From positions 1-52,219 of IMG/VR virus record IMGVR_UViG_3300032291_002410: DNA of 52,219 nucleotides; one strand, 5' to 3'. A model generated the notes under the pieces. That model did no database searches and was not told the DNA's origin. It was given only the letters and a program-made list of their open reading frames with translations. This document shows positions 1 through 32,245 of this stretch, in pieces. The stretch is from a virus. How positions within the stretch are numbered: the first letter of the stretch is position 1; every line of letters begins with the position of its first letter. The translations under genes and the position numbers were made by a program.

Positions 1-55
1 ATGGCGGAAACGCCTAAGTGTGATACCGCATGTGAGGTATCTCACTCCCTCTAGG

Positions 56-65
56 GGGTGTGTCG
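56..65 (+). repeat. GGGCGTGTCG box, degenerate first copy
   Basis: The sequence GGGTGTGTCG differs at one position from a decamer that recurs ten more times up to 3350. It lies just upstream of the first promoter. Role unknown; operator-like by analogy with repeated repressor sites in actinophages. Confidence 0.5.
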
Positions 66-74
66 CCTTGATAT

Positions 75-96
75 TGTCGGGGCGATATGGTAAATT
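75..96 (+). promoter_or_regulatory. TGTCRG-type promoter 1
   Basis: TGTCGG at 75-80, ten bases, then a TAAATT -10-like hexamer at 91-96 preceded by TGG. The leader contains AACGAAAG. It would drive the genes from 134 to 713. Confidence 0.6.
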
Positions 97-133
97 ATCA
101 CTAATGAAAAACCTAACGAAAGAAGGAAAGAAA

Positions 134-295
134 ATGAATAACCTAAAGATAACCTACTCAATGTGGGACGGGGCTCAACTACTAGGCGTAGATTTTACCG
201 CTAATAGCGCAGATGAAATGCTTAAGGTAGTAAGCGAACTACAAAAAGTTTCTAAAAATGTTGTAGCGCATATGCGAAAGGTGGAAAAAAACTAA
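134..295 (+). CDS. Small conserved-type phage protein, unknown function
   Basis: A 53-residue protein starting MNNLKITYSMWDG. The start at 134 is chosen because GAAAGAAGGAAAG sits just upstream and promoter 1 lies about 40 bases before it; an upstream in-frame start would run through the promoter. It has no cysteine cluster or membrane segment. It is first in a four-gene cistron, and its stop overlaps the next start (TAATG). I do not recognise a family. Confidence 0.7.
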   Translation: MNNLKITYSMWDGAQLLGVDFTANSADEMLKVVSELQKVSKNVVAHMRKVEKN

Positions 296-468
296 TGATG
301 ACTAAATGGGATACTATTCAGGCAGACATAGCAGACGCTTATGTCTATCTTGATGAAGAAGAAGCGTTAGAAAAAATAAACGCAGAAGCGGTTAGCGATA
401 GCGATATCGTTAGCCTTGATGAAATAATCGAGAAAGAATTAACATTAGATTGGGAGGCATACGAATAA
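295..468 (+). CDS. Small acidic protein, unknown
   Basis: A 57-residue acidic protein (MMTKWDTIQADIADAYVYL) rich in Asp and Glu in its second half. It starts in a TAATG overlap with the preceding gene, so translation is probably coupled. A second ATG at 298 is equally possible. No family recognised. Confidence 0.65.
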   Translation: MMTKWDTIQADIADAYVYLDEEEALEKINAEAVSDSDIVSLDEIIEKELTLDWEAYE

Positions 469-614
469 TGGAGTTTTACGCAGATTTGGAATACATAAGT
501 TTTTATGTAAGTAATTTATATCCTAGCGGTATCGCAATAGAGATACCAACATGGGTGCTAGTAGGCACAATATCTCTATGGTATAGCATTAGATTACTTA
601 GGAGAGATAAGTAA
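468..614 (+). CDS. Small single-span membrane protein
   Basis: A 48-residue protein with one hydrophobic stretch near residues 24-41 followed by basic residues (RLLRRDK), which suggests a membrane anchor with a cytoplasmic basic tail. It starts in a TAATG overlap with the gene before. Function unknown. Confidence 0.65.
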   Translation: MEFYADLEYISFYVSNLYPSGIAIEIPTWVLVGTISLWYSIRLLRRDK

Positions 615-713
615 ATGGCTAATCCTAGCGGATTTTATACCTGCCCTAAATGTGGCAGGTTAAACGTTGGCGCATATACTAAATGCGTATGTGAGCAACC
701 TCACAAAGAATAG
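615..713 (+). CDS. Zinc-ribbon mini-protein
   Basis: A 32-residue peptide with CPKCG near residue 10 and CVCEQPH near the end, a cysteine/histidine arrangement that could bind one zinc ion. It follows the preceding stop directly. It is the last gene of the first cistron and is followed by a repeat-rich gap. Function unknown. Confidence 0.6.
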   Translation: MANPSGFYTCPKCGRLNVGAYTKCVCEQPHKE

Positions 714-928
714 ACGGCGTGTCGGCTTGACAAAATCGAGTCGATCCCCCACATAGCTACGGGGTCGGGCGTGTCGTTATGAAGTCGTTATAAAACACCC
801 TGGATTTTGTGGATAACTTTCGGGCGTGTCGTGGCGTGTCGGGCGTGTCGTCCACAGCCATAATGTGATTAAGAACACACAGTTTGAGCGTCTCATTATT
901 TGGAATTACTGGAAAGTAATATGCAAAA
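714..928. other. Repeat-rich intergenic module A
   Basis: No gene is seen. The gap holds GGCGTGTCG boxes at 716, 767, 822, 832 and 841 (the last three in tandem), a CTTGACAAAATCGA segment that recurs at 3239, a bipartite element GTTATG (776) N16 CCCTGGAT (798), and a minus-strand TTATCCACA at 808-816. The same parts recur in later gaps. Confidence 0.8.
822..850 (+). repeat. Tandem GGGCGTGTCG boxes
   Basis: Three copies lie head to tail at 822-831, 832-841 and 841-850; the middle one is TGGCGTGTCG. It is the densest cluster of this decamer in the window and a plausible protein-binding array. Confidence 0.75.
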
Positions 929-950
929 TGTCGGTGGGCTAGAGTATAAT
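929..950 (+). promoter_or_regulatory. TGTCRG-type promoter 2
   Basis: TGTCGG at 929-934, a 10-base spacer, then TATAAT at 945-950. It is followed by AACGAAAGG at about 967 and the ATG at 987. Confidence 0.75.
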
Positions 951-986
951 ATCCACTATAAACAAAACGAAAGGAAGTGGCTAACA

Positions 987-1193
987 ATGGCTAACTTATA
1001 CACAATAGAAGATTTACTAATTGGAAAATCTTATCGCTCTAAATCTATCTCTGACGGAAAAATTATTTCCGCAGAAAAATCTAAAGACGCTCTCTGGTAT
1101 GGCGAAAATACCGAAGCGTATTTCGTAGAAATACAAGAAGGTCGTTCGCTCCGTAATACTTATCGCACAGTAGCGGTTAAGGTAGGTGACTAA
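987..1193 (+). CDS. Small phage protein, unknown
   Basis: A 68-residue protein (MANLYTIEDLLIGKSYRSKS...). The start at 987 lies downstream of promoter 2 and an AACGAAAGG leader, so an upstream in-frame start at 900 is rejected. Its compact, beta-looking sequence has no cysteines. It is the first gene of a two-gene cistron. Confidence 0.7.
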   Translation: MANLYTIEDLLIGKSYRSKSISDGKIISAEKSKDALWYGENTEAYFVEIQEGRSLRNTYRTVAVKVGD

Positions 1194-1194
1194 T

Positions 1195-1317
1195 ATGGGA
1201 TACATAGAAGTATTCACAATGAATTCTGAGGGTGCGGGGTGGCTTGACCTCTCCGATATTCCCGCCGAAACTTTATTGGAATTGGAAATCGGATTATTTC
1301 AGGAAGGTGCGCTCTAG
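1195..1317 (+). CDS. Small acidic protein, unknown
   Basis: A 40-residue acidic protein (MGYIEVFTMNSEGAGWLDL) that starts one base after the preceding stop codon. Its TAG overlaps the first base of a GGGCGTGTCT box at 1317-1326. No family recognised. Confidence 0.6.
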   Translation: MGYIEVFTMNSEGAGWLDLSDIPAETLLELEIGLFQEGAL

Positions 1318-1336
1318 GGCGTGTCTATCCCGAAAT

Positions 1337-1358
1337 TGTCGGTGGCTTAGGCTATAAT
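1337..1358 (+). promoter_or_regulatory. TGTCRG-type promoter 3
   Basis: TGTCGG at 1337-1342, ten bases, then TATAAT at 1353-1358. It is followed by AACGAAAGG and the ATG at 1390. A GGGCGTGTC box lies 11 bases upstream. Confidence 0.75.
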
Positions 1359-1389
1359 TACAATTAACAACAACGAAAGGAAAACTAAA

Positions 1390-1533
1390 ATGGGAAATAT
1401 CCTAGATGAACTAAAAGACTTAATCGCAATTCCTTGTGATGAGTGTGATGGTGCTGGCTTTATATTCTTTGGTAATGAAAAGAATTATGATGTGGAAAGT
1501 TGCGACTGTGTAAATGATGAGGAGTTAATCTAA
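1390..1533 (+). CDS. DnaJ-type zinc-finger-like mini-protein
   Basis: A 47-residue protein with CDECDGAGF, the CxxCxGxG signature of the DnaJ cysteine-rich repeat, and a second pair CDC further on, so one zinc site is plausible. It is first in a four-gene cistron and its TAA overlaps the next ATG. Inference: a small protein- or nucleic-acid-binding zinc protein. Confidence 0.65.
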   Translation: MGNILDELKDLIAIPCDECDGAGFIFFGNEKNYDVESCDCVNDEELI

Positions 1534-1733
1534 TGTATAGACTAGATACTTACTATGACGGCAATTTGGAATACACACATAAGTTTGCTGACGCATTACA
1601 AGCGTTTGAGGCTTTCGCAAAATGCTATGATGTTGGGTTTGCTAAAGAATTAGCAACCTATAATTTATCTTTGCCAACGGGCAAAATGTATACTAAAAAC
1701 TTTAATAGAATTGGTTTGGTATCCGCAAAATGA
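1533..1733 (+). CDS. Small phage protein, unknown
   Basis: A 66-residue protein with aromatic and alanine residues in its middle (ADALQAFEAFAKCYDVGF), probably largely helical. It starts in a TAATG overlap. The next start overlaps its last codons. Function unknown. Confidence 0.65.
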   Translation: MYRLDTYYDGNLEYTHKFADALQAFEAFAKCYDVGFAKELATYNLSLPTGKMYTKNFNRIGLVSAK

Positions 1734-1921
1734 TGACTAGAAAAGATTATATTGCTACTGCTGAAATATTAAAATATATTAGCGATAAAACTCACCCTGC
1801 CGTATTCTCTAAAACTGTTCACGATTTCGCAGAAATGTTTGCGAAAGATAACGAACGATTTGATGTAAGCAGATTTCACAAGGCAAGTGGTTATCGTGTT
1901 CCTAATTTTAATTCACGATAA
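1730..1921 (+). CDS. Conserved phage protein of the RKDY...RFD type
   Basis: A 63-residue protein (MMTRKDYIATAEILKYISD) with a late NERFDVSRFHKASGY segment. Small proteins starting RKDYxxIAxxL and ending RFDxxRFxxAxG are common in phages that infect many bacteria; none has an agreed function that I can name. A second ATG at 1733 is possible. It overlaps both neighbours by a few bases. Confidence 0.7.
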   Translation: MMTRKDYIATAEILKYISDKTHPAVFSKTVHDFAEMFAKDNERFDVSRFHKASGYRVPNFNSR

Positions 1922-2055
1922 TGAAATTTAAAATTAGTAGAAGCGGTAAAGTAAAACGCATTCAGGAATTGCGTCGCAGTAATGCGGCGCAACCTGTTCG
2001 CAATAAAAAAAAATACTTTAGAAAATTAAAACATAAAAAATCTGATCTAATATAA
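1921..2055 (+). CDS. Very basic small protein
   Basis: A 44-residue protein dominated by Lys and Arg (MKFKISRSGKVKRIQELRR... and a KKKYFRKLKHKK stretch), which suggests nucleic-acid binding. It starts in a TAATG overlap and ends its cistron just before three GGGCGTGTCG boxes. No family recognised. Confidence 0.6.
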   Translation: MKFKISRSGKVKRIQELRRSNAAQPVRNKKKYFRKLKHKKSDLI

Positions 2056-2175
2056 TCTCGGGCGTGTCGCAGCTTGCAACGCAGTCGGGCGTGTCGCCCG
2101 CATAGCTGCGGGGTCGGGCGTGTCGTTAAGGGTGTGATTAAAAACACCCTGAAAACTTGCGTGTTTTGTAGTAAA
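2056..2175. other. Repeat-rich intergenic module B
   Basis: GGGCGTGTCG occurs at 2060, 2087 and 2116. CCCGCATAGCTGCGGG (2097-2112) forms a small hairpin. The bipartite element GTTAAG (2125) N16 CCCTGAAA (2147) follows, and GGGTGT...ACACCC can form a second hairpin inside it. No gene is seen. Confidence 0.75.
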
Positions 2176-2197
2176 TGTCAGTCAGCCCTGATATACT
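2176..2197 (+). promoter_or_regulatory. TGTCRG-type promoter 4
   Basis: TGTCAG at 2176-2181, ten bases ending TGA, then TATACT at 2192-2197. It is followed by AACGAAAGG and the ATG at 2226. Confidence 0.75.
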
Positions 2198-2225
2198 ATC
2201 AATTCACCCAACGAAAGGTCAACTA

Positions 2226-2381
2226 ATGAACGATATTAACTCATGCTATTGCACTAACTATTCTATTTGCACAATTTGTGTTAAAGGTTATACAACTGAC
2301 GGCGCAGCTGTCTATGATCGAGATCTAGCACGAGATTGGGCTATGTCACGCATGGCCGATGCAGAAATGGGGGATTTATAA
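2226..2381 (+). CDS. Cysteine-rich small protein
   Basis: A 51-residue protein with five cysteines in its first 18 residues (CYCTNYSICTIC pattern) and an acidic or alanine-rich C-terminal half. The start at 2226 follows AACGAAAGGTCAACTA. Its TAA overlaps the ATG of the GP88 gene, so the two are probably co-translated. Confidence 0.65.
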   Translation: MNDINSCYCTNYSICTICVKGYTTDGAAVYDRDLARDWAMSRMADAEMGDL

Positions 2382-3133
2382 TGTCAGACCTAACCGATAT
2401 AATTGCCCCTATGGTAAAATTAAAAAGATCAAATGATAGAAAGGTAACTAATCTTGTCACAAAAAATGGAAAACAATCCGCAATTGCGAACACGTTCGGT
2501 CTCCCTGCTGGAAAGGCTTACTCATGCCCTGGTGCCACTAGTATTTGTGAGAGTGTTTGCTACGCAGGAAAACTTGAAAAAGTCTACAAAGGAGTAAGAG
2601 CCGTACTCTTGCACAATTGGGAATTACTCCGCAATGCGGATGAGCCTACTATGGTTGACCTAATTGAAAACATGATCATAGACTTTAAAAAAGACTGCGA
2701 TAAAAAGAATGCTGAAAAATTATTCCGTATCCACTGGGACGGAGATTTTTTTAACGATACCTATACACGTGCATGGCAATATGTGATCTTAAATAATACC
2801 GATATTCAATTTTGGGTATATACACGAGTTAAGTCTGCAGCGCTTATGCTAAACAATATATCTAATCTATCACTGTACTATTCAACGGATGATGATAATA
2901 AAGAAATTGCATTTGACTTAAAAACTAATTCTAAAATTCGTCTTGCTTATCTAGGGAAAACATTCTCTGCTACCGAAAACACAATGAAAGAATTAACGGG
3001 TAAGCCTGGCGCTAAATGTCCTGAGAATATGAAAAGTATTCCATTAATCTCTAGCAATGGGTCCGCTTGTGTATCTTGTGGCTTGTGTGTTTATGGTAAA
3101 GCGGATATTAGATTTTCTGCGAGTAAAAAATAA
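2381..3133 (+). CDS. GP88-family phage protein
   Basis: A 250-residue protein with the hallmarks of the phage Gene product 88 family: KNGKQSAIANTFGLPAG followed by CPGATSICESVCYAG at about residues 49-62, and a C-terminal cysteine group (CVSCGLCVYG). The cysteine pattern suggests a metal or iron-sulfur site, and the middle part (IHWDGDFFNDTYTRAW) resembles GP37/68-type proteins; I do not claim an activity. The start at 2381 is chosen because it forms a TAATG overlap. The ATG used by a longer in-frame reading lies inside the previous gene. Length fits the family. Confidence 0.85.
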   Translation: MSDLTDIIAPMVKLKRSNDRKVTNLVTKNGKQSAIANTFGLPAGKAYSCPGATSICESVCYAGKLEKVYKGVRAVLLHNWELLRNADEPTMVDLIENMIIDFKKDCDKKNAEKLFRIHWDGDFFNDTYTRAWQYVILNNTDIQFWVYTRVKSAALMLNNISNLSLYYSTDDDNKEIAFDLKTNSKIRLAYLGKTFSATENTMKELTGKPGAKCPENMKSIPLISSNGSACVSCGLCVYGKADIRFSASKK

Positions 3134-3228
3134 TGTATGAGGTTATTGGTGCTATTGGAGGATCACTAGTAATGCTTATATCTATCCTGCCAATTTTATT
3201 AGCTGCATATGTAATGACTAAGCTGTAA
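3133..3228 (+). CDS. Tiny membrane peptide
   Basis: A 31-residue peptide that is almost entirely hydrophobic (MYEVIGAIGGSLVMLISIL...), one membrane span. It starts in a TAATG overlap with the GP88 gene. Function unknown. Confidence 0.55.
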   Translation: MYEVIGAIGGSLVMLISILPILLAAYVMTKL

Positions 3229-3365
3229 CGGCGTGTCGACTTGACAAAATCGATCTCGCCCGCATACATGCGGGGTTATCCACAGGGTTATGAGGGTTAT
3301 CCACAACCCCTGGAATTGTGAGTATTATCACAAAAGCTGAGACACGCCCATAATAGATTAGGTAA
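3229..3365. other. Repeat-rich intergenic module C with two DnaA-like boxes
   Basis: GGCGTGTCG at 3230 and its reverse complement at 3341-3349 flank a CCCGCATACATGCGGG hairpin, two perfect TTATCCACA 9-mers at 3276-3284 and 3297-3305, and the bipartite element GTTATG (3287) N15 CCCTGGAA (3308). No gene is seen. Confidence 0.8.
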
Positions 3366-3387
3366 TGTCGGTAGGTAATGGTAAAAT
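3366..3387 (+). promoter_or_regulatory. TGTCRG-type promoter 5
   Basis: TGTCGG at 3366-3371, ten bases ending TGG, then TAAAAT at 3382-3387. It is followed by AACGAAAGG at about 3402 and the ATG at 3416. Confidence 0.75.
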
Positions 3388-3415
3388 ACTCTTATCCAAC
3401 AACGAAAGGTAGAAA

Positions 3416-3622
3416 ATGAAAACAGTAGAACACTCCCTTAGATTTATTACAGAGTTAGATGAAACTAATCCAACCGCACAACAATTACTATCATTAGATA
3501 AAGATATGCAGGCACTATTACTAGAAGGCATGCTACACACTTTACTCGTTCCCGATATTATGCCACTTATAGATAATCTAAACGCAGGCAACTCTTACGC
3601 AATACTAAAGGTTGTAAAATAA
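3416..3622 (+). CDS. Small helical phage protein, unknown
   Basis: A 68-residue protein (MKTVEHSLRFITELDETN...) rich in Leu, Asp and Glu and probably helical. It is first in a three-gene cistron behind promoter 5 and AACGAAAGG. Its TAA overlaps the next ATG. Function unknown. Confidence 0.7.
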   Translation: MKTVEHSLRFITELDETNPTAQQLLSLDKDMQALLLEGMLHTLLVPDIMPLIDNLNAGNSYAILKVVK

Positions 3623-3897
3623 TGTTAGCAACTGCCATCGGAATACTTGACGCAACCCAAGATAGCATATTTGATGATGAGATTATGGGATTAGCGGGGG
3701 AACTACACGAACGCAGAAATGAACTATCAGATGAAACTTTTGCTAAATATCTATTCATGTATTCCACAGCCCTATCTAGCAAGGTAGCAGACCTCGTAAC
3801 TAAAGTATGTTTAAGTAAAGAGGAAATGTCGGTGCTATGCGCTACAATAGACGAAATGGACGACCTATCAGAAACTATACTAGAGGAGAACGAATAA
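3622..3897 (+). CDS. Acidic helical phage protein, unknown
   Basis: A 91-residue acidic protein, predicted mostly helical (ELHERRNELSDETFAKYLF). It starts in a TAATG overlap, and its last codons contain the GAGGAGAACG ribosome site of the next gene. No family recognised. Confidence 0.7.
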   Translation: MLATAIGILDATQDSIFDDEIMGLAGELHERRNELSDETFAKYLFMYSTALSSKVADLVTKVCLSKEEMSVLCATIDEMDDLSETILEENE

Positions 3898-4179
3898 ATG
3901 GGAAGCATAACAGCACTAGGAATACAGGACAGCGTGTTAGACCTAGAAACACAATTACTCTATCACTTAAAGGGTAATCATTATCCACCCGTTCCCGCTG
4001 AAATGGTAAAGCCTTGCATAGATGCTATTGACGCATACTATGATGAGGATTTTGATCGAGAAATTGATATGCCTAAAGTAAATGATTTTCAGATTACTTA
4101 TAAAGGAAAACTTACAGCACCCGCAAGGGCTATCGTTGAGCAACACCACTTAGAGTTTTGGCTACCCGAAAGTGATTAG
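3898..4179 (+). CDS. Conserved phage protein of the GNHYPPVP type
   Basis: A 93-residue protein with LKGNHYPPVPAEMV near residues 23-36, an AIDAYYD acidic stretch and a final IVEQHHLEFWL. This combination recurs in small proteins of actinobacteriophages; function unknown. The start directly follows the preceding TAA and has a good GAGGAG site. Confidence 0.75.
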   Translation: MGSITALGIQDSVLDLETQLLYHLKGNHYPPVPAEMVKPCIDAIDAYYDEDFDREIDMPKVNDFQITYKGKLTAPARAIVEQHHLEFWLPESD

Positions 4180-4224
4180 CATCACACGCTGATATTCTCA
4201 AATACTGAGATAGGGCTAGACTAA

Positions 4225-4246
4225 TGTCAGACCCCAATGCTACAAT
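4225..4246 (+). promoter_or_regulatory. TGTCRG-type promoter 6
   Basis: TGTCAG at 4225-4230, ten bases ending TGC, then TACAAT at 4241-4246. The leader contains AACAAAGAAAAGAGG before the ATG at 4273. Confidence 0.75.
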
Positions 4247-4272
4247 ACAACCTAACAAAGAAAAGAGGCAAA

Positions 4273-4452
4273 ATGACAATAGAAGGAAAACTCTATCAGG
4301 TTGGTGATTTATTCACCACTCTAAAGTCAAAAAAGACAGGTGTTATCAAAGAGATACACCCACAGGCATCTGGCTCGGTGCGTGTGCTACTAGAAATGCC
4401 AACGAAAGAAACTCGTTGGACTTCAGTATCCGCTAAAACGCTACTGGGCTAG
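4273..4452 (+). CDS. Conserved phage protein of the VGDLFTT...SGSVRV type
   Basis: A 59-residue protein whose VGDLFTTLKSKKTGVIKE and SGSVRVLLEM...RWTSV segments look like a small beta-barrel (SH3- or KOW-like), a type frequent in actinophage early regions. The start at 4273 is set by the promoter and GAGG site; an in-frame start at 4237 would lie in the promoter. It is single and is followed by a hairpin. Confidence 0.7.
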   Translation: MTIEGKLYQVGDLFTTLKSKKTGVIKEIHPQASGSVRVLLEMPTKETRWTSVSAKTLLG

Positions 4453-4464
4453 TAATTTAGGGCA

Positions 4465-4484
4465 GGGGGGTCGTCAGACCCCCC
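4465..4484 (+). terminator. GC hairpin overlapping promoter 7
   Basis: GGGGGGTC (4465-4472), loop GTCA, GACCCCCC (4477-4484) is a perfect 8-bp stem after the previous gene. There is no clear T-run, so termination is uncertain. Its right arm lies in the spacer of promoter 7. Confidence 0.55.
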
Positions 4485-4493
4485 TGCTATAAT
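4472..4493 (+). promoter_or_regulatory. TGTCRG-type promoter 7
   Basis: CGTCAG at 4472-4477 (one mismatch), ten bases ending TGC, then TATAAT at 4488-4493. AACGAAAGG follows at about 4514, with the ATG at 4531. Confidence 0.7.
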
Positions 4494-4530
4494 ACTCATA
4501 CCAACAACCAACCAACGAAAGGTAATACAA

Positions 4531-4953
4531 ATGGCAAGAGGCAAAGCAATACAGGTAAAAATCGCAACAACTAAGGTTATCAAAGCCTTAGAAGTAAGAT
4601 TAGCCAAACTAGAGGCTGATTACACATCACAAGAGGAAAAAGAAGCAAAGTATCAGAAGCAGTTAGAAAAGTGGCGTAAAGAAATTGGCAAGTGGGCTAT
4701 TGCTAATTTTGCTAAATCAGAAAACTTACGCACCAACTATCGCAACTGGAACAAAACTCTCAATGTTGATTTTGATATAATTATTGACGAGAAAGATTTT
4801 CCTGCTGAGCCAACTAAGGACTACGAGCAACTCCACTCACACACTTATCGTGAGATGAAAGATGAGATGGAAAATGCTATCCGTATTCTTAAAATGACCG
4901 ATGAGGAAGTAGTTAGCGCAAGCACATACAACGCTATTGCTCGTTATCTCTAA
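4531..4953 (+). CDS. Coiled-coil phage protein, unknown
   Basis: A 140-residue protein with a long charged helix in its first 55 residues (LEVRLAKLEADYTSQEEKEAK onward), probably a coiled coil, then a mixed C-terminal part. It has its own promoter and AACGAAAGG leader. It is followed by a strong GC hairpin. Function unknown; an oligomeric accessory or scaffold-like protein is possible. Confidence 0.7.
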   Translation: MARGKAIQVKIATTKVIKALEVRLAKLEADYTSQEEKEAKYQKQLEKWRKEIGKWAIANFAKSENLRTNYRNWNKTLNVDFDIIIDEKDFPAEPTKDYEQLHSHTYREMKDEMENAIRILKMTDEEVVSASTYNAIARYL

Positions 4954-4965
4954 TTAGATAAACAT

Positions 4966-5004
4966 AAGGGCGGGTGCGTGGGTTATAGACAACACCCGCC
5001 CCTT
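4966..5004 (+). terminator. Hairpin terminator whose loop holds a -35 box
   Basis: AAGGGCGGGTG (4966-4976) pairs with CACCCGCCC (4993-5001). The loop contains TAGACA at 4986-4991, which is the -35 of the following promoter. Confidence 0.65.
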
Positions 5005-5014
5005 ATGGTAAAAT
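4986..5014 (+). promoter_or_regulatory. Sigma70-like promoter inside terminator
   Basis: TAGACA (4986-4991), a 17-base spacer, then TAAAAT (5009-5014) preceded by TGG. The TGTCRG box is absent. It drives the gene at 5042. Confidence 0.6.
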
Positions 5015-5041
5015 TATTATCCCTACTAACAAAGGAAGCAA

Positions 5042-5269
5042 ATGCGTTTCAAAATAGAAATGTATGATGAAGTAAAAGCAAATGATTTAACAATTTATTC
5101 AGATGAAGGCTATGATAACGAAAGCTTAAAAGAACTCGTGTTCTCAAACTTAAAACGATTTGATGGAAATGTTAAAGCGTTTGTGTATGATCAACAAAAC
5201 AAAAAGAAAACTTCTGCGGCATTCTTTCCTATGGAAACAGTTAATTACGTAAAGTCTATCTGTAAATAA
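5042..5269 (+). CDS. Small phage protein, unknown
   Basis: A 75-residue protein (MRFKIEMYDEVKANDLTIYS...) with alternating hydrophobic residues, probably a small alpha/beta fold. AACAAAGGAAGCA precedes the ATG. It is monocistronic, bounded by hairpins on both sides. No family recognised. Confidence 0.7.
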   Translation: MRFKIEMYDEVKANDLTIYSDEGYDNESLKELVFSNLKRFDGNVKAFVYDQQNKKKTSAAFFPMETVNYVKSICK

Positions 5270-5272
5270 TAT

Positions 5273-5299
5273 TAGGGCGGAAATCTCCCCGCCCTATTT
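5273..5299 (+). terminator. Rho-independent-like terminator
   Basis: TAGGGCGG (5273-5280) pairs with CCGCCCTA (5289-5296) over an 8-base loop, followed by TTT. It lies directly after the stop at 5269. Confidence 0.65.
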
Positions 5300-5424
5300 C
5301 CCAATCTGGCCCGCAATAGCTGAGGGGTTATCCACAGTTTTAAGTGGGCCTGTGGATATCCCTGGAATTTTGTGAGATTAATCACACCGCACAATTCAGA
5401 CATATTATAACTAATCCTAGACAA
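5300..5424. other. Repeat-rich intergenic module D
   Basis: The module holds TTATCCACA at 5328-5336 and an inverted ATATCCACA at 5351-5359, which together form a hairpin, and the bipartite element TTTAAG (5339) N15 CCCTGGAA (5360). TTTTGTGAG and an ATCACAC segment like that of module C follow. No gene is seen. Confidence 0.75.
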
Positions 5425-5446
5425 TGTCAGTGCCACCTGTTATAAT
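5425..5446 (+). promoter_or_regulatory. TGTCRG-type promoter 9
   Basis: TGTCAG at 5425-5430, ten bases ending TGT, then TATAAT at 5441-5446. A TAGACA lies 17 bases upstream of the -10, so this copy also looks like a normal sigma70 promoter. AACGAAAGG and the ATG at 5476 follow. Confidence 0.8.
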
Positions 5447-5475
5447 AAATCTAACAAACAAACGAAAGGTAAAAA

Positions 5476-6483
5476 ATGGCTCATAACCTAGAAATGCAAG
5501 ATGGTGAAGTAGCATTTGCGCTGCGTGGCGCTCCTGCTTGGCATAACCTTGCAAACCGCATCTTTACAAAAGATGAAGAAGTTACAACCGCAACAATGCT
5601 TGAAGAAGCAAAGTTAGCAAATTGGAATGTTCGCTTATCTCCAATTACTGAATATATCCCAGAAACATTTAACGATGTATCTGATGCTTCTTTAGTCTTA
5701 CGCACAAATCCATTCAATGGTGGAACTGATGTTCTTGCAACTGTTGGAAAGCGTTACAAGCCTGTGCAGAATGAAGAGTTATTTGCTTTTGCAGATGCTA
5801 TTCACGATGCCAACGCCGATTGCCGTTGGGAATCTGCTGGCTCACTAAAAAAGGGTAAAGTTGTTTTCGGAACTGTGGACATTCCACGCACAATGGTATT
5901 AGACCCACAAGGCGCTAATGACCAAACAAAACTATACTTAATTGTATGGACTTCACACGATGGTTCTGTTGCTGTTCAAGCAGCCGTTACACCTGTTCGT
6001 GTAGTTTGCCAAAACACATTGAATCTTGCAATGCGTAACGCAAAGCAATCTTTCAAAATTCGTCACACACAATCTGTTGAAGGACGAATTCAAGTTGCTC
6101 GTGAAACTCTTGGGCTTGCTCTTGGGTATTTCGATGAGTTTGAAGTTGAAGCGAAAGCGCTTTATTCTCAAGCAATTACCGATGCTGAATTTTCTAAGTT
6201 AATTCAGACAATTTATCCTAAGCCAGATAAAGATGCATCTAAAGTTGCGCTAACTAAATGGGAGAATAAGGTTGTATTGCTTGATGACCTTTACCACAAT
6301 TCACCAACTAACACTAACATCAAGGGAACTAAGTGGGGTGCGTTCAATGCACTAACTGAGCGTCTTGATTATTTCCGTTCAGGTCGTGGCAATTCTGAAA
6401 CACTAATGGCTGGTGCTTCAGGCTTTGACCCAATTCTTACTGCTGAGAAAAATAAACTTCTCAAGTTAGTAAAAGCATTTTAA
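5476..6483 (+). CDS. DUF932 phage/plasmid-like protein
   Basis: A 335-residue protein matching the DUF932 (TIGR03299) family. It has the N-terminal APAWHNLANRIF block at about residues 19-30, an RYKPVQNEELFAFADAI block near 92-108, and a central VTPVRVVCQNTLNLAM block. DUF932 proteins are widespread on phages and plasmids; no enzymatic activity is firmly established. Length fits. It is expressed alone from promoter 9 and closed by a strong terminator. Codon use looks more GC-rich at third positions than its neighbours, consistent with high expression. Confidence 0.93.
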   Translation: MAHNLEMQDGEVAFALRGAPAWHNLANRIFTKDEEVTTATMLEEAKLANWNVRLSPITEYIPETFNDVSDASLVLRTNPFNGGTDVLATVGKRYKPVQNEELFAFADAIHDANADCRWESAGSLKKGKVVFGTVDIPRTMVLDPQGANDQTKLYLIVWTSHDGSVAVQAAVTPVRVVCQNTLNLAMRNAKQSFKIRHTQSVEGRIQVARETLGLALGYFDEFEVEAKALYSQAITDAEFSKLIQTIYPKPDKDASKVALTKWENKVVLLDDLYHNSPTNTNIKGTKWGAFNALTERLDYFRSGRGNSETLMAGASGFDPILTAEKNKLLKLVKAF

Positions 6484-6498
6484 ATAAATGCTAACTAG

Positions 6499-6527
6499 CG
6501 GGGGAGAATAAAATCTCCCCCGTTTTT
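6499..6527 (+). terminator. Rho-independent terminator
   Basis: CGGGGGAGA (6499-6507), a six-base loop, TCTCCCCCG (6514-6522), then TTTTT. This is the clearest intrinsic terminator in the window; it ends the DUF932 transcript. Confidence 0.9.
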
Positions 6528-6531
6528 ATTT

Positions 6532-6604
6532 GGTTCGTTAGCTTAGCGGTTAAAGCGCTACCCTGTCACGGTAGAGATCGTGGGTTCAAATCCCATACGA
6601 ATCG
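6532..6604 (+). tRNA. tRNA-Asp (anticodon GTC)
   Basis: A complete cloverleaf: acceptor GGTTCGT pairs with ACGAATC (one G-T pair), the anticodon stem CTACC/GGTAG encloses CTGTCAC, and the T arm has GGTTCAAATCC. The discriminator base is G and CCA is not encoded. It lies just after the DUF932 terminator. Confidence 0.95.
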
Positions 6605-6694
6605 CAATCTCAAAATATGAGATGCCCCCAGTGTTAAGGGACGGAAAAGTGTGTTAAGGGTCACATAAAAAATCCCCTGGAAACTATTGATATT
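6605..6694. other. Intergenic module E
   Basis: GTGTTAAGGG occurs twice (6631 and 6651). The second copy is the left half of the bipartite element GTTAAG (6653) N16 CCCTGGAA (6675). No gene is seen. Confidence 0.65.
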
Positions 6695-6716
6695 TGTCAG
6701 TTGGGTCCGCTATAAT
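6695..6716 (+). promoter_or_regulatory. TGTCRG-type promoter 10, leaderless
   Basis: TGTCAG at 6695-6700, ten bases, then TATAAT at 6711-6716. An ATG begins exactly six bases after the -10, so the transcript is probably leaderless. Confidence 0.75.
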
Positions 6717-6722
6717 ACTCGC

Positions 6723-7358
6723 ATGATAGAAAAATGGACTAAAGATACACATCTCTGTACAATTTGCGATGCATTAATTGAGGTCACCCGTAAGGATGAA
6801 TTCAGAAATATATGGCACTGTGGCGGGGAATGCAATCTTTTGTCAGTTGAAGATGCTACAATACAACCTAACCAAACGAAAGAGGATAAAATGGAAGATA
6901 CAAACTATGGCGCTACAGTAACACCTGCAGTTCCTGAATCATATAATGCTAATCTATTGGTAACCTATAAAGTTATTAAAGGTTATTCGGATGCAGAGTA
7001 TACAACAGATAAAGTTGCATCTATTGAATGGGACCTGCATAACGGACGTAAGTATAATGAAAGAGTTAATGAATTAAATAATAAGATAGACACAGTTAAA
7101 GATATTATTTCTGAAGCATATCCTGATTCAGAAGACCAAGACACACTCCGTGCAATTGCTGAGGCTCTTGGTATTGAGTTGACTAAAACAGTTGAGTTTA
7201 CTGCAACCGTTGAAGTTACTGGAACTATTGAAATAGATTTGCTAGCCGACTATGGCACAGATGTAGAATCAGAAGTTACAGAAAATCTTTATGTTGAAAC
7301 ACAAAGCGGAAACATTGAAATTGATGAGCAATATGTAACTAATGTTAGGGAGTGCTAA
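6723..7358 (+). CDS. Zinc-binding N-terminus fused to conserved phage domain; internal start at 6891
   Basis: From the leaderless ATG at 6723 the frame encodes 211 residues. The first 56 carry CTIC and HCGGEC, a possible zinc site. The rest (from M57, ATG at 6891) is a 155-residue acidic domain ending with FTATVEVTGTIEIDL. A second TGTCRG promoter at 6841-6862 and an AACGAAAGAGG leader lie inside the coding sequence, so a short form starting at 6891 is likely to be the main product. Either there are two nested products, or the zinc-like part is an accidental read-through. The next gene starts in a TAATG overlap. Function unknown. Confidence 0.65.
   Translation: MIEKWTKDTHLCTICDALIEVTRKDEFRNIWHCGGECNLLSVEDATIQPNQTKEDKMEDTNYGATVTPAVPESYNANLLVTYKVIKGYSDAEYTTDKVASIEWDLHNGRKYNERVNELNNKIDTVKDIISEAYPDSEDQDTLRAIAEALGIELTKTVEFTATVEVTGTIEIDLLADYGTDVESEVTENLYVETQSGNIEIDEQYVTNVREC
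6841..6862 (+). promoter_or_regulatory. TGTCRG-type promoter 11, inside a reading frame
   Basis: TGTCAG at 6841-6846, ten bases ending TGC, then TACAAT at 6857-6862. AACGAAAGAGG and an ATG at 6891 follow. The whole element is in frame within the preceding coding sequence. Confidence 0.75.
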
Positions 7359-7570
7359 TGTATTTTGAGTTGACTGCTCCCGATAAATTATCTTTCGAGA
7401 TGGCTTATTGGGATGCACAAATAATGGGATTAGACCCACAGGTATTATCTGCATTGACTTTCAATGTCGGAACTGGTAGTATTGAGAAGGTAAGTCGCAT
7501 TCGAGATAAACATAACTTAATTGAAAGTTATACATCAGAATACGAGCCAACAGGATACACAGGGAGATAA
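7358..7570 (+). CDS. Small phage protein, unknown
   Basis: A 70-residue protein (MYFELTAPDKLSFEMAYWDAQ) containing MGLDPQVLSALTF. The start at 7358 is chosen because ATG overlaps the previous TAA. An in-frame ATG two codons upstream is less likely. No family recognised. Confidence 0.7.
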   Translation: MYFELTAPDKLSFEMAYWDAQIMGLDPQVLSALTFNVGTGSIEKVSRIRDKHNLIESYTSEYEPTGYTGR

Positions 7571-7571
7571 T

Positions 7572-7718
7572 ATGTCAGATTACAAAGATGGTTTTAATGA
7601 CGGGTATAAGTTTGCTCGTGAAGAGATTATTGAAAAGTTATCAGAGATTGATATCGCAGATATAGACTCTTGGATTCTTGACCGTCTTTCAGAAATGATG
7701 GAAGGTGGCAAACTGTGA
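7572..7718 (+). CDS. Small helical phage protein (DGFNDGYKFAREE type)
   Basis: A 48-residue protein with an N-terminal SDYKDGFNDGYKFAREEII helix and an acidic helical tail. This start follows GGGAGATAAT; a longer reading from 7521 overlaps the previous gene by 50 bases and is rejected. Its TGA overlaps the next ATG. Function unknown. Confidence 0.65.
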   Translation: MSDYKDGFNDGYKFAREEIIEKLSEIDIADIDSWILDRLSEMMEGGKL

Positions 7719-7906
7719 TGGCTGAATGGCTTAAGTGTGATCAATGTGCAGCTCAAGCAATGTGGGAAGCAAAGAAAGATGAACTATCTCTTTATTTCTG
7801 CGGGCACCACAAGAATTCACAGGGGGAGTCACTTGTGGACTGGGCCCAAGAAATGGTACAATTACTCAACTACGAGCAAGAACAACAACTAGCAAAGGCG
7901 GAATAA
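7718..7906 (+). CDS. Zinc-finger-like small protein
   Basis: A 62-residue protein with CDQC at residues 7-10 and CGHH about 20 residues later, a CC/CHH site resembling small actinophage zinc proteins. ATG at 7718 (TGATG overlap) is preferred to the GTG three bases earlier. The C-terminal third is a polar helix. Confidence 0.7.
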   Translation: MAEWLKCDQCAAQAMWEAKKDELSLYFCGHHKNSQGESLVDWAQEMVQLLNYEQEQQLAKAE

Positions 7907-7907
7907 C

Positions 7908-8309
7908 ATGGGTGATAGAGCAAACTTCGGATTTAGACAATCCAGCGGAGAAACAATCATGCTGTATGGACACTGGGCAGGCCATGACATGCTTGGCAAT
8001 CTAGCAAGCGCTGTAGAAGCAGCAAGATCTCGTTGGAAAGATGAATCATATGCCACACGTATTGTGGTCTCACATTTAGTTGGGGACCAATGGCATGATA
8101 CAACAGGCTGGGGATTAACCGTTAATAGTATCCTTGACAATGAGCACAAAATTCCTTTGATTGATTGGTCTACTGGAACATTCTCTTTACATGAAGAGGC
8201 TCCATGGTCTGAATCAACAGAATACAAAGTTCGTGGAATGCAGGATGAACCAATTTTTAAAATGGGACTAGACGCATTCGTTGATAAATATGCGAGGGCC
8301 ACGGTATAA
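7908..8309 (+). CDS. Conserved actinophage protein (GDRANFGF type)
   Basis: A 133-residue protein starting MGDRANFGFRQSSGETIML and containing YGHWAGHDM. Proteins with this GDRANF start and a HWxG block are frequent in phages of Actinobacteria; no function is established. AAAGGCGGAATAAC gives a strong ribosome site. It is the last gene of the cistron that begins at 6723. Confidence 0.75.
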   Translation: MGDRANFGFRQSSGETIMLYGHWAGHDMLGNLASAVEAARSRWKDESYATRIVVSHLVGDQWHDTTGWGLTVNSILDNEHKIPLIDWSTGTFSLHEEAPWSESTEYKVRGMQDEPIFKMGLDAFVDKYARATV

Positions 8310-8553
8310 TTAATCTAGTAGGGTGCCCCTATAGTCTCTTGAGGCCAGGGGTTAAATAAGGCAGAGTTCTTTTACTTTCGTTGGTGAACCTCTAGCAGCC
8401 TGTAAAAGGTACTTGACAAATCGCAATTGGCCCGCAAGAATAAGGGTAGCATATTTTGCTTACGGAAACAATATTAAAAACCCTGGAATTTTGTGATGTT
8501 CCCCATATAGCTTGGGGAATGTGGTGTGAAACACACCCATATTGTATATACAA
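8310..8553. other. Intergenic module F, no gene seen
   Basis: A 293-base gap (to 8602). It contains a third CTTGACAAA-TCG copy near 8411, GGCCCGCAAGAATAAGGG, and the bipartite element CTTACG (8459) N16 CCCTGGAA (8481) followed by TTTTGTG. TTCCCC-N10-GGGGAA forms a hairpin, then ATCACAC-like GTGTGAAACACACC. The promoter follows at 8554. Confidence 0.7.
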
Positions 8554-8575
8554 TGTCAGTGGCAGATGTTACAAT
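8554..8575 (+). promoter_or_regulatory. TGTCRG-type promoter 12
   Basis: TGTCAG at 8554-8559, ten bases ending TGT, then TACAAT at 8570-8575. AACGAAAGG and the ATG at 8603 follow. Confidence 0.75.
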
Positions 8576-8602
8576 TAAGCCATATCAACGAAAGGATATA
8601 AT

Positions 8603-9361
8603 ATGCCAAACTGGGTATATAACACTTTGACTATACAAGGTCCAAAGAATGAGATAGATTCAATTAAAGATAAGTTGAATCAACCATACAAGGTATTACA
8701 TGATAGTTGGAATATGAAGACTGGTGAAATGGAAGTAACTGAGTCTGTTTATTCCGCTCCTGTTTTTTCCTTTTGGAATATCCATTCTCCATTAGAAGAC
8801 GGTATTACAATGGAAGAATATGTTCAACAGCCTAATCGTCTAGGAATTTCTACTGACTCCCCTGACTGGTTTGCTAAAGAAGTAGAGCATGCTAAAACTC
8901 AGAAAGATTGGTATAACTGGAATACTTCTAAATGGGGAACCAAATGGGATGTAGCCGTATCAGACGGTGATGAGTATCCTGATACTGAATTACTTGAATA
9001 TATGTCAGAGGGTGAGGATAACTGGCTAGTATATAAATATAATACTGCTTGGTCTCCTGCTGTAACTATCTTAACTAAACTATCATTACTTGTTCCGAAC
9101 TCCCTTCTCACATTAGAGTTTGAGGAAGAAACAGGTTGGGGTGGAGAATATGAGATTGTCCGTGGTGAAGTTAAAGAAAACCTAGAATATACCAATATGT
9201 GCTATGCCTGCCAATCCTATGACACAATAGATTATTGTGAAGAGGGATGTGGAGAGTTCTGCTCATCTTGTAATCATGGCTCTTGGCAAGATGAAGAGGC
9301 TATGAAAGAATGTCAGACCCATAAGATATACTTAAAGACTAAAGAAAAGGCGGAGGTATAA
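8603..9361 (+). CDS. Api92-like ferredoxin-fold protein with C-terminal zinc ribbon
   Basis: A 252-residue protein. MPNWVYNTLTIQGPKNEID is the typical start of the phage Api92/YubB (DUF1281-like) ferredoxin-like fold. The middle has FSFWNIHSP and KWGTKWDVAVSD blocks, also typical. The last 55 residues add a cysteine cluster (CYACQSYDTIDYCEEGCG, then CSSC), an apparent zinc module. The family occurs in phages and conjugative elements; its role is unknown. It leads a cistron of overlapping genes with promoter 12 and AACGAAAGG upstream. Confidence 0.85.
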   Translation: MPNWVYNTLTIQGPKNEIDSIKDKLNQPYKVLHDSWNMKTGEMEVTESVYSAPVFSFWNIHSPLEDGITMEEYVQQPNRLGISTDSPDWFAKEVEHAKTQKDWYNWNTSKWGTKWDVAVSDGDEYPDTELLEYMSEGEDNWLVYKYNTAWSPAVTILTKLSLLVPNSLLTLEFEEETGWGGEYEIVRGEVKENLEYTNMCYACQSYDTIDYCEEGCGEFCSSCNHGSWQDEEAMKECQTHKIYLKTKEKAEV

Positions 9362-9606
9362 TGAAATTAAAATTCAACCAAACACAAAAGTCTGAGCAAT
9401 TTATAGATACTGTGGCAGAGCACATTACAGGTGCAATGATACAAGAAATTGGCGAAGACCTATTTGATAATTGGGCCAATGCATGTTTAGATGAAGGTGA
9501 AGATTATGCTGAACGTGAATTTATGGCATATGGTTCCCCTGAGTTAAAGAAACAATATAACGAGTTCTATGGATATACAGAAAAGGATGAGTACTACTTA
9601 TGTTAG
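9361..9606 (+). CDS. Small acidic phage protein, unknown
   Basis: An 81-residue acidic protein (MKLKFNQTQKSEQFIDTVAEH...) that starts in a TAATG overlap with AAAGGCGGAGG upstream. Its end overlaps the next gene by seven bases. No family recognised. Confidence 0.7.
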   Translation: MKLKFNQTQKSEQFIDTVAEHITGAMIQEIGEDLFDNWANACLDEGEDYAEREFMAYGSPELKKQYNEFYGYTEKDEYYLC

Positions 9607-9782
9607 GATATACGGAATCTGATCTAAATAGAATGATTAATGCTATACATGACGCAAAGCTTTTTTATCTTAGGACCCCGTCCGATTTAATGGATAAGTC
9701 ACTCCTAGTTAATGATTTGCTAATGGCCAAGGATTTCCTTGACGGCCTATGGGCGGAGGGTTACTTTGACCACACAAACTAA
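9600..9782 (+). CDS. Small helical phage protein, unknown
   Basis: A 60-residue protein (MLGYTESDLNRMINAIHDAKL) with a helical, charged sequence. It overlaps its neighbours at both ends, as expected in a coupled cistron. Function unknown. Confidence 0.65.
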   Translation: MLGYTESDLNRMINAIHDAKLFYLRTPSDLMDKSLLVNDLLMAKDFLDGLWAEGYFDHTN

Positions 9783-9963
9783 ATCATCTTATTTCTTAGA
9801 GTATATGAAGATATATCTAATTAGTTTAGAACAAGATTTGGAAAGTAATCCTGAATCTATCAATGTAATTGATATACAAGGACAGATATATGCCACGAAG
9901 CATTTATTGTCAGTGGCTACTGATATAATGAATAAATCTAACGAAAGGGTATATCATGAATAA
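9766..9963 (+). CDS. Small phage protein, TTG start
   Basis: A 65-residue protein if it starts at the TTG at 9766, which is preferred because GGGCGGAGGG lies five bases upstream. No ATG is well placed. It contains a helical segment (LISLEQDLESNPESINV). A TGTCRG promoter lies inside its 3' part. It resembles the next gene in general layout (LEQDLESNP versus AEQDLTDTEP), so the two may be diverged copies. Confidence 0.6.
   Translation: MTTQTKSSYFLEYMKIYLISLEQDLESNPESINVIDIQGQIYATKHLLSVATDIMNKSNERVYHE
9908..9929 (+). promoter_or_regulatory. TGTCRG-type promoter 13, inside a gene
   Basis: TGTCAG at 9908-9913, ten bases ending TGA, then TATAAT at 9924-9929, all within the 3' end of the preceding coding sequence. 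AACGAAAGGG and the ATG at 9956 follow. Confidence 0.7.
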
Positions 9964-31459: not shown

Positions 31460-31733
31460 ATGATTCTAGGATCCTTTTAACCATTTCGATATAATCTATA
31501 ACTCTCATTCTCATACTGCCATCGTACTGTGAAAAATTGTTTTCATATAATCTTATTGCTAAAAATTCAGGATACTTTACAATATCCATCTGTAAGTCGT
31601 GTGAAGGGCTTTTTAATTCTCTCACTTTTTTTGCCATTTCTTTTGTGTAAAAAACTGGCTTGTTGGCTTCTCCAGTCCATTCGTTAACGCCATACTGGAA
31701 ATGATTTTTGTCTTTATCTATAAAGTTAGCCAT
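31410..31733 (-). CDS. Phage protein, unknown
   Basis: A 107-residue protein (MANFIDKDKNHFQYGVNEWTG) with a C-terminal helix and a GKPGGRAG tail. AAGGGACTAC precedes the ATG, eight bases inside the whiB gene end. No family recognised. Confidence 0.7.
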   Translation of the reverse strand: MANFIDKDKNHFQYGVNEWTGEANKPVFYTKEMAKKVRELKSPSHDLQMDIVKYPEFLAIRLYENNFSQYDGSMRMRVIDYIEMVKRILESYGVRVELEGKPGGRAG

Positions 31734-32034
31734 GTAGTCCCTTTATTTTTTTGTTTATTTCTTTTGTCTTATGTGCATTTTTTGATTTATCTGGTGTGCC
31801 AGAACTTAGATAAACTCCGCCCCAAACACCGTAATTATCTGACTCTACTCCATATTTATAGCACATGGCAATTACAGGACAAGACATGCATGCCTGATCA
31901 ATACTTTTTGCTATGTTAATATCCGTTTCGTATGAATCAAAAAATAGGTTGGTGTCCATGCCAAGACATAGTGCTAGGTCTTGCCATTGAAGTAGGTCTT
32001 TATCTATTCCTAAATTATTTAAAATTTTTGACAT
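31726..32034 (-). CDS. whiB: WhiB-family transcription factor
   Basis: A 102-residue WhiB-like protein from the ATG at 32034. The four cluster cysteines are C23 (LALC), C49 and C52 (ACMSC) and C58 (MCY), followed by GVWGG. WhiB proteins carry a [4Fe-4S] cluster, bind the housekeeping sigma factor and are confined to Actinobacteria and their phages. This strongly fixes the host phylum. The C-terminus is basic. A longer reading from 32100 would overlap the upstream gene by 86 bases. It could regulate host or phage promoters here. Confidence 0.95.
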   Translation of the reverse strand: MSKILNNLGIDKDLLQWQDLALCLGMDTNLFFDSYETDINIAKSIDQACMSCPVIAMCYKYGVESDNYGVWGGVYLSSGTPDKSKNAHKTKEINKKIKGLHG

Positions 32035-32245
32035 ATTGTGTTGGGAGCTTCCATAGCCCATCATCGTTGATTGCAATTTTTTCTGCAATTCCCCACTCAT
32101 TTTTGAATAGACCGTTTTTATTTGTGAACCCAGAACTATTTTTCTTCCAGATAATTAAAGAGTAATTGTCCCAAAAAGAATGTAAGACTTTAGAATTGGA
32201 TCTCTTTATAAAAACATCTACGCCTAATTCAGTTAAGTTAAGCAA
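32015..32245 (-). CDS. Phage protein, TTG start
   Basis: A 76-residue protein (LNLTELGVDVFIKRSNSKVL) with Trp-rich segments HSFWDNYSLIIWKKNSSG and GLWKLPTQYV. It starts at TTG behind AGGAAG, immediately downstream of tRNA-Leu. The SFWDNYSLI.W pattern occurs in other small phage proteins; function unknown. Confidence 0.65.
   Translation of the reverse strand: MLNLTELGVDVFIKRSNSKVLHSFWDNYSLIIWKKNSSGFTNKNGLFKNEWGIAEKIAINDDGLWKLPTQYVKNFK

Follow-up and report, generated by a model that had tools for sequence, protein, structure and literature searches.

The stretch of DNA analysed here is a linear 52.2 kb IMG/VR fragment (record IMGVR_UViG_3300032291_002410, 52,219 nucleotides; hereafter the window), and the element in question is a repeated decamer, GGGCGTGTCG (hereafter the box), which lies between small genes at its left end. 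The window represents part of a ~110 kb phage genome with a distant relationship to the Stanwilliamsviridae; the DnaE-like polymerase encoded in it shares 56% identity with those of Streptomyces phages BillNye and Circinus, and its gp88 is 55% identical to that of phage Mandalore. Because the catalase-peroxidase (KatG) encoded in the window is closest to that of acI strain IMCC25003 (64%), the host is likely an acI bacterium (Nanopelagicales). The boxes, the predicted promoters next to them and two genes that are important for their interpretation are the following.

56..65, + strand: box GGGTGTGTCG, one mismatch, adjoining a stop codon; 34 nt from the start of its 9-mer (57) to the -10 element
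75..96, + strand: promoter TGTCGG-N10-TAAATT, a pattern match, putatively active
715..724, + strand: box CGGCGTGTCG, immediately after a stop codon
767..776, + strand: box, exact
822..831, + strand: box, exact, member of a tandem triplet
832..841, + strand: box TGGCGTGTCG, member of the tandem triplet
841..850, + strand: box, exact, member of the tandem triplet
929..950, + strand: promoter TGTCGG-N10-TATAAT, pattern match
1317..1326, + strand: box GGGCGTGTCT, which overlaps a stop codon and is the proximal site of the promoter at 1337
1337..1358, + strand: promoter TGTCGG-N10-TATAAT, pattern match
2060..2069, + strand: box, exact
2087..2096, + strand: box, exact
2116..2125, + strand: box, exact, 59 nt upstream of the promoter at 2176
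2176..2197, + strand: promoter TGTCAG-N10-TATACT, pattern match
2384..3133, + strand: gp88 homologue (PF17338), in the middle of the box region
3229..3238, + strand: box CGGCGTGTCG, immediately after a stop codon
3340..3349, - strand: inverted box, 25 nt upstream of the promoter at 3366; position retained in many relatives
3366..3387, + strand: promoter TGTCGG-N10-TAAAAT, pattern match
31726..32100, - strand: WhiB-like transcription factor (PF02467), candidate partner of the box-binding protein

A scan of all 52,219 nt with at most one mismatch revealed 12 copies of GGGCGTGTCG (11 on the + and one on the - strand), all of them within 56-3349. In 100 dinucleotide-preserving shuffles scanned in the same way, the mean was 0.24 copies and the maximum 2. 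The shuffled-sequence control that the initial annotation had named as a possible refutation thus gave far lower counts, and the repeated decamer reported there is borne out. Most of its coordinates agree as well, except that 716 and 3230 are starts of the 9-mer, the decamers beginning at 715 and 3229. If two mismatches are allowed, seven further matches appear from 5346 onwards, which equals the chance level (6.5). As had been claimed, every copy lies between cistrons, five of them (56, 715, 1317, 2060 and 3229) being located 0-5 nt past, or overlapping, the stop codon of the small open reading frame on their left, and none lies in the - arm of the window. The proposed confinement to the first 3.35 kb holds within the window; however, the contig start truncates the box region, the left limit seen here being the contig end, and in relatives with more left-hand DNA the region begins up to ~3 kb further upstream.

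As relatives, 80 loci were used whose gp88 is 80-87% identical to that of the window. The box is present around gp88 in all 80, contrary to the absence from related phages that had been named as a second ground for rejection. In 15 long relatives (85-116 kb), exact copies of GGCGTGTCG are confined to one locus, the early arm, and the reversed control word does not occur in these genomes at all (0 occurrences). The box region belongs to a rightward arm of ~10-12 kb, made up of small genes; this arm also carries nearly all promoters of the type TGTCRG-N10-TAnnnT and CRP-type palindromes (TGTGAN6TCACA), as well as the majority of the DnaA-like TTATCCACA words. Most of the arm proteins have no recognised domain; that the arm genes are early is what we infer. 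In the listed Streptomyces phages, a homologue of the DUF932 protein of this arm occupies two positions, one of them near the left end. In one relative (G004; L213/L218), an exact end repeat of 3,269 bp (1-3269 = 108743-112011) lies inside the box arm. Possibly the box arm represents a long terminal repeat of the kind present in Streptomyces BE phages.

The promoter class TGTCRG-N10-TAnnnT, with TGTCRG at about -28, is nearly limited to the rightward arm (75-9908 of the window, + strand). The geometry of boxes and promoters was determined for 413 distinct box contexts, similar promoters being clustered before spacings were counted. In this sample, 82% of the boxes have such a promoter no more than 160 nt downstream, compared to 28% of random points, and 33% no more than 30 nt downstream, compared to 5%. 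In the basic layout, a + box precedes the promoter by 17-18 nt or a - box by 25 nt. Counted by cluster, the + box stands 16-19 nt from the promoter element in ~31 promoter clusters and 59-60 nt from it in 10, and the - box 25-26 nt in 22 clusters and about 80 nt in 5. Proximal boxes are locked to the promoter with a tolerance of 1-2 bp in both orientations, whereas distal boxes are loosely spaced. With the -10 element placed at -12 to -7, the stretch from about -46 to -38 is taken up by the proximal + box, beside the -35 region and 34 nt before the -10 element, and that from about -53 to -45 by the - box. With the + box at 18 nt, 20 of 32 promoters have at least four matches to TTGACA at -35 (13% in shuffled sequences); with the - box at 25 nt, the -35 element is not above chance (6/61 promoters with at least four matches). 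The consensus of the box at promoter-proximal positions, mismatches allowed, is GG(C/T)GTGT(C/T)G. Such close spacing, with 1-2 bases of play, would be consistent with a factor in contact with RNA polymerase. A helical 10.5-bp phasing of the box distances was considered as well and rejected, the signal not being specific to that period.

Similar arrangements can be found in more distant phages. A diverged phage (L495; GC content 48%, DUF932 59% identical) possesses 10 boxes, all on the + strand and mostly ahead of small genes. Four proximal ones have a TAnnnT -10 element at exactly 34 nt, the distance seen in the window family, and L176 provides one more; this agreement outside the family concerns few sites. 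No TGTCRG promoters were found in the scanned stretch of L495. In a lineage of 15-19 kb Arthrobacter-phage-like genomes (L131; L415-L494), the box stands beside the portal gene in only 45/80 loci and with a different geometry, so that this lineage is a doubtful case. Furthermore, Streptomyces phage Mandalore (PP171441; L225, 4930-14915) carries 14 copies of a GC-rich TGCGCCCGGCGCACAAG-type box in one orientation, mostly between a hairpin and a promoter and at most copies 56-57 nt before the -10 element. No box equivalent was recognised among the repeats of BillNye and EGole.

The box also occurs in the putative hosts. In 21 acI-type genomes, where the exact box was counted against the reversed word, 20 of the 27 scorable copies are intergenic, compared to 7.4% for random positions. 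They recur upstream of DUF4193 (8), nrdR (3), rpsL (2, and in IMCC25003), phoH (2) and recA (1), orthologous sites being non-independent in these counts (the names nrdR and recA derive from N-terminal sequences, and Pfam confirmed rpsL, phoH and DUF4193 in IMCC25003). Both phoH promoters have a TATCTT -10 element at exactly 34 nt from the box, and in IMCC25003 AGACACGCC adjoins the start codon of nrdR too. Upstream of DUF4193, CGACACGCC is conserved in acI (L321, L325, L329-L331, L333, L345, L346, L312) and is followed by a TTRTA-type sequence; it is a predicted host regulatory site. As the box is also present at host promoters, a host-encoded factor is indicated rather than a phage immunity repressor.

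Which factor could this be? The GTGTC inside the box is the reverse complement of GACAC, and this core is present in all exact boxes, promoter-proximal variants tolerating GTGTT. Streptomyces WhiA recognises a GACAC motif in either orientation and binds as a monomer; its footprint at the nrdR promoter covers a GACAC site, and its targets in chromatin immunoprecipitation include ribosomal-protein genes (PMC3781837). GACAC was also the sole motif found in WhiB targets, and WhiA and WhiB depend on each other for binding in vivo (PMC4850268). The putative host encodes a complete WhiA (PF02650, PF14527, PF10298). Each of the 16 phage records examined (16/16) has exactly one WhiB-like protein; in the Pfam hits listed, no other transcription factor was recognised, and neither an HTH_3 nor a Crp-type protein was found in these 16 records. 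We therefore put host WhiA first, on the grounds of the GACAC core, the nrdR target, the host WhiA, the phage WhiB and the lack of HTH_3 and Crp-type proteins in the phage records. Our tentative reading, for which the chances appear nearly even, is that the box is a site beside the -35 element for a host regulator, probably WhiA, perhaps together with the phage WhiB. A transcription factor would occupy the box upstream of the early-arm promoters; it would most likely be host-made WhiA recognising the core GACAC/GTGTC, with the phage WhiB-like protein as a possible partner, and once bound would set the time at which host RNA polymerase transcribes the early genes. The factor is more likely to activate than to repress, and the position of the box suggests activation similar to class II. 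It is conceivable, although we would not call it probable, that this widespread family of large freshwater actinobacterial phages combines sites for WhiA, a developmental regulator of the host, and CRP-type and DnaA-type sites, all at fixed distances ahead of its early promoters, with a WhiB of its own that acts on them, and so couples the onset of infection to the growth or division state of the host.

Several observations weigh against WhiA at the box. The last base of GTGTC may be T at promoter-proximal sites, which differs from a strict GACAC motif; moreover, GACAC comprises only 5 bp, and the specificity of WhiA is poorly defined. The promoters are pattern matches. The box is not enriched across the acI genomes (62 copies versus 101 of the reversed word), so that few host sites are marked, and the boxes in the DUF4193 and nrdR promoters of the host are not at 34 nt. 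The intergenic bias of CGACACGC in IMCC25003, the single complete host genome, is a moderate signal, this word ranking 185th of 32,740 8-mers. The host was assigned from one metabolic gene and GC content only. Finally, Mandalore uses a different box although its host group also has WhiA.

The promoter modules of the arm contain further elements besides the boxes.

3259..3274, + strand: hairpin CCCGCATACATGCGGG
3276..3305, + strand: twin DnaA-box-like TTATCCACA, 21 bp apart
3317..3332, no strand assigned: CRP-type palindrome TGTGAGTATTATCACA

The DnaA-box-like TTATCCACA is also present at 808-816 and 5328-5336 of the window, in the same promoter modules and often as a twin at 21 bp; another DnaA-like twin, at 12 bp, occurs near the arm end in relatives (e.g., G003, 74766/74778). 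CRP-type palindromes TGTGAN6TCACA are located at 690-705, 3317-3332 and 5371-5386 of the window, and the relatives possess 4-11 each, with 0 reversed controls. Their distances to the promoter element advance in 10-bp steps (34, 44, 54, 64 and 74, plus 49), a helical phasing that would be characteristic of a class I activator. A single Crp-type protein is encoded by the putative host. As a host-enriched motif the palindrome was rejected, with 0 exact and 9 degenerate occurrences in the putative host versus 23 for the control. A hairpin, CCCGCATAnnTGCGGGG, possibly a terminator, is repeated in the intergenic modules (745-765, 2094-2114 and 3256-3276 of the window). The Rfam scan gave tRNAs only. 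Outside the arm, metabolic genes are abundant on the - strand (12940-50746), encoding KatG, IMPDH, several 2OG-Fe(II) oxygenases, AdoMet decarboxylase, a Cys/Met PLP enzyme and a radical SAM protein.

The boxes could instead be operators of a regulator that the phage encodes, which may have a fold that escaped recognition or may be the WhiB-like protein acting by itself. At a later stage of infection it would turn the early promoters off or on, and the host copies of the word would be coincidental or takeover targets. The high density of near-consensus boxes in the phage and their rarity in the host would agree with this, as would the different box of Mandalore in the same architecture, which is expected if regulator and site co-evolve; furthermore, most arm proteins without a known domain leave room for such a regulator. 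However, the 16 records have no HTH_3 or Crp-type protein, WhiB is the sole factor recognised among the listed Pfam hits, and the conserved intergenic host sites, with the 34-nt geometry at phoH, would be left unexplained. We regard a phage regulator as rather unlikely. A host factor other than WhiA (e.g., an unstudied regulator of nrdR, rpsL, phoH and DUF4193) seems more doubtful still. It would be compatible with conserved, promoter-linked host sites whose link to WhiA consists of the GACAC core and nrdR, and with the presence of Crp-type and DnaA-type sites in the same phage promoters, but WhiA accounts jointly for the core, the asymmetry, the occurrence in both orientations and nrdR.

Boxes, DnaA boxes and hairpins could also be iterons of a replication origin, as tandem boxes, TTATCCACA pairs and hairpins are grouped together. 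This is very improbable, since the boxes precede many separate promoters at a fixed distance and no Rep-type protein was recognised.

The initial annotation had likened the boxes to the stoperators of cluster A mycobacteriophages, where an immunity repressor bound to the boxes of a temperate phage blocks both initiation and elongation. Part of this comparison stands: the boxes are repeated, asymmetric sites, mostly in one orientation, in gene gaps, tied to early promoters and seemingly recognised by one DNA-binding protein, and they lie in an early region near gp88, which sits among stoperators in cluster A phage TipsytheTRex, too. The likeness to cluster A specifically is not supported. Cluster A stoperators have a 13-bp consensus and are present as 20-30 sites throughout the genome, oriented with transcription and mostly off promoters (PMC9283540, PMC6550527), whereas here the sites are restricted to one arm and the proximal ones are promoter-locked in both orientations. 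A homologue of the TipsytheTRex repressor (Rep) was not found in the window, three near-complete relatives or the 80 loci (best tblastn E = 4.8; gp88 as positive control, E = 2e-88), nor did phmmer give a match. The L5 13-mer GGTGG(M)TGTCAAG has 0 occurrences in the window and in the relative G003 (8 in the right end of TipsytheTRex as control), and tyrosine integrase PF00589 was found in 0/16 records, possibly incomplete, serine integrase and parABS not having been searched in all of them. Moreover, spacing fixed to 1-2 bp suits contact with RNA polymerase better than genome-wide elongation roadblocks. Stoperators of this type are thus scarcely credible here. Least probable of all is an element acting at the RNA level, a terminator or antiterminator transcribed between cistrons, for which the location after stop codons and beside hairpins could speak, but which is contradicted by the two orientations, by a position at constant distance ahead of the promoter, which places the box outside the transcript that follows, and by the Rfam matches to tRNA only.

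Bacteria of the acI lineage rank with the most abundant cells in fresh water, and very little has been learned about gene control by their phages. The box predicts a host regulator at phage early promoters; for WhiA-type control in an actinobacterium that is streamlined and does not sporulate, it offers a first candidate cis-element, and it also suggests a reason for the retention of WhiB genes in actinophages.

Among known systems, Mandalore shares with the window family a GC-rich box in one orientation, the order hairpin, box, promoter and a fixed distance to the -10 element, although both the word (TGCGCCCGGCGCACAAG) and the spacing are different. The WhiA/WhiB regulon of Streptomyces is similar in its GACAC/GTGTC core, in the use of both orientations, in the monomeric, asymmetric site and in the nrdR and ribosomal-protein gene targets. 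It differs in that the word described here, GGCGTGTCG, is longer, the spacing rigid and the sites mainly in phage, and in that acI hosts are streamlined and non-sporulating, unlike Streptomyces. A further parallel is offered by the CtrA sites of alphaproteobacterial phages (PMC9437464), which are dense, locally confined sites of a host-type regulator in phage promoter regions and a means of reading the state of the host. The boxes are likewise concentrated in phage promoter regions. Here, however, the candidate regulator is WhiA, and the putative site is asymmetric, set at a fixed distance from the -10 element and located in the early arm of phages of freshwater actinobacteria.

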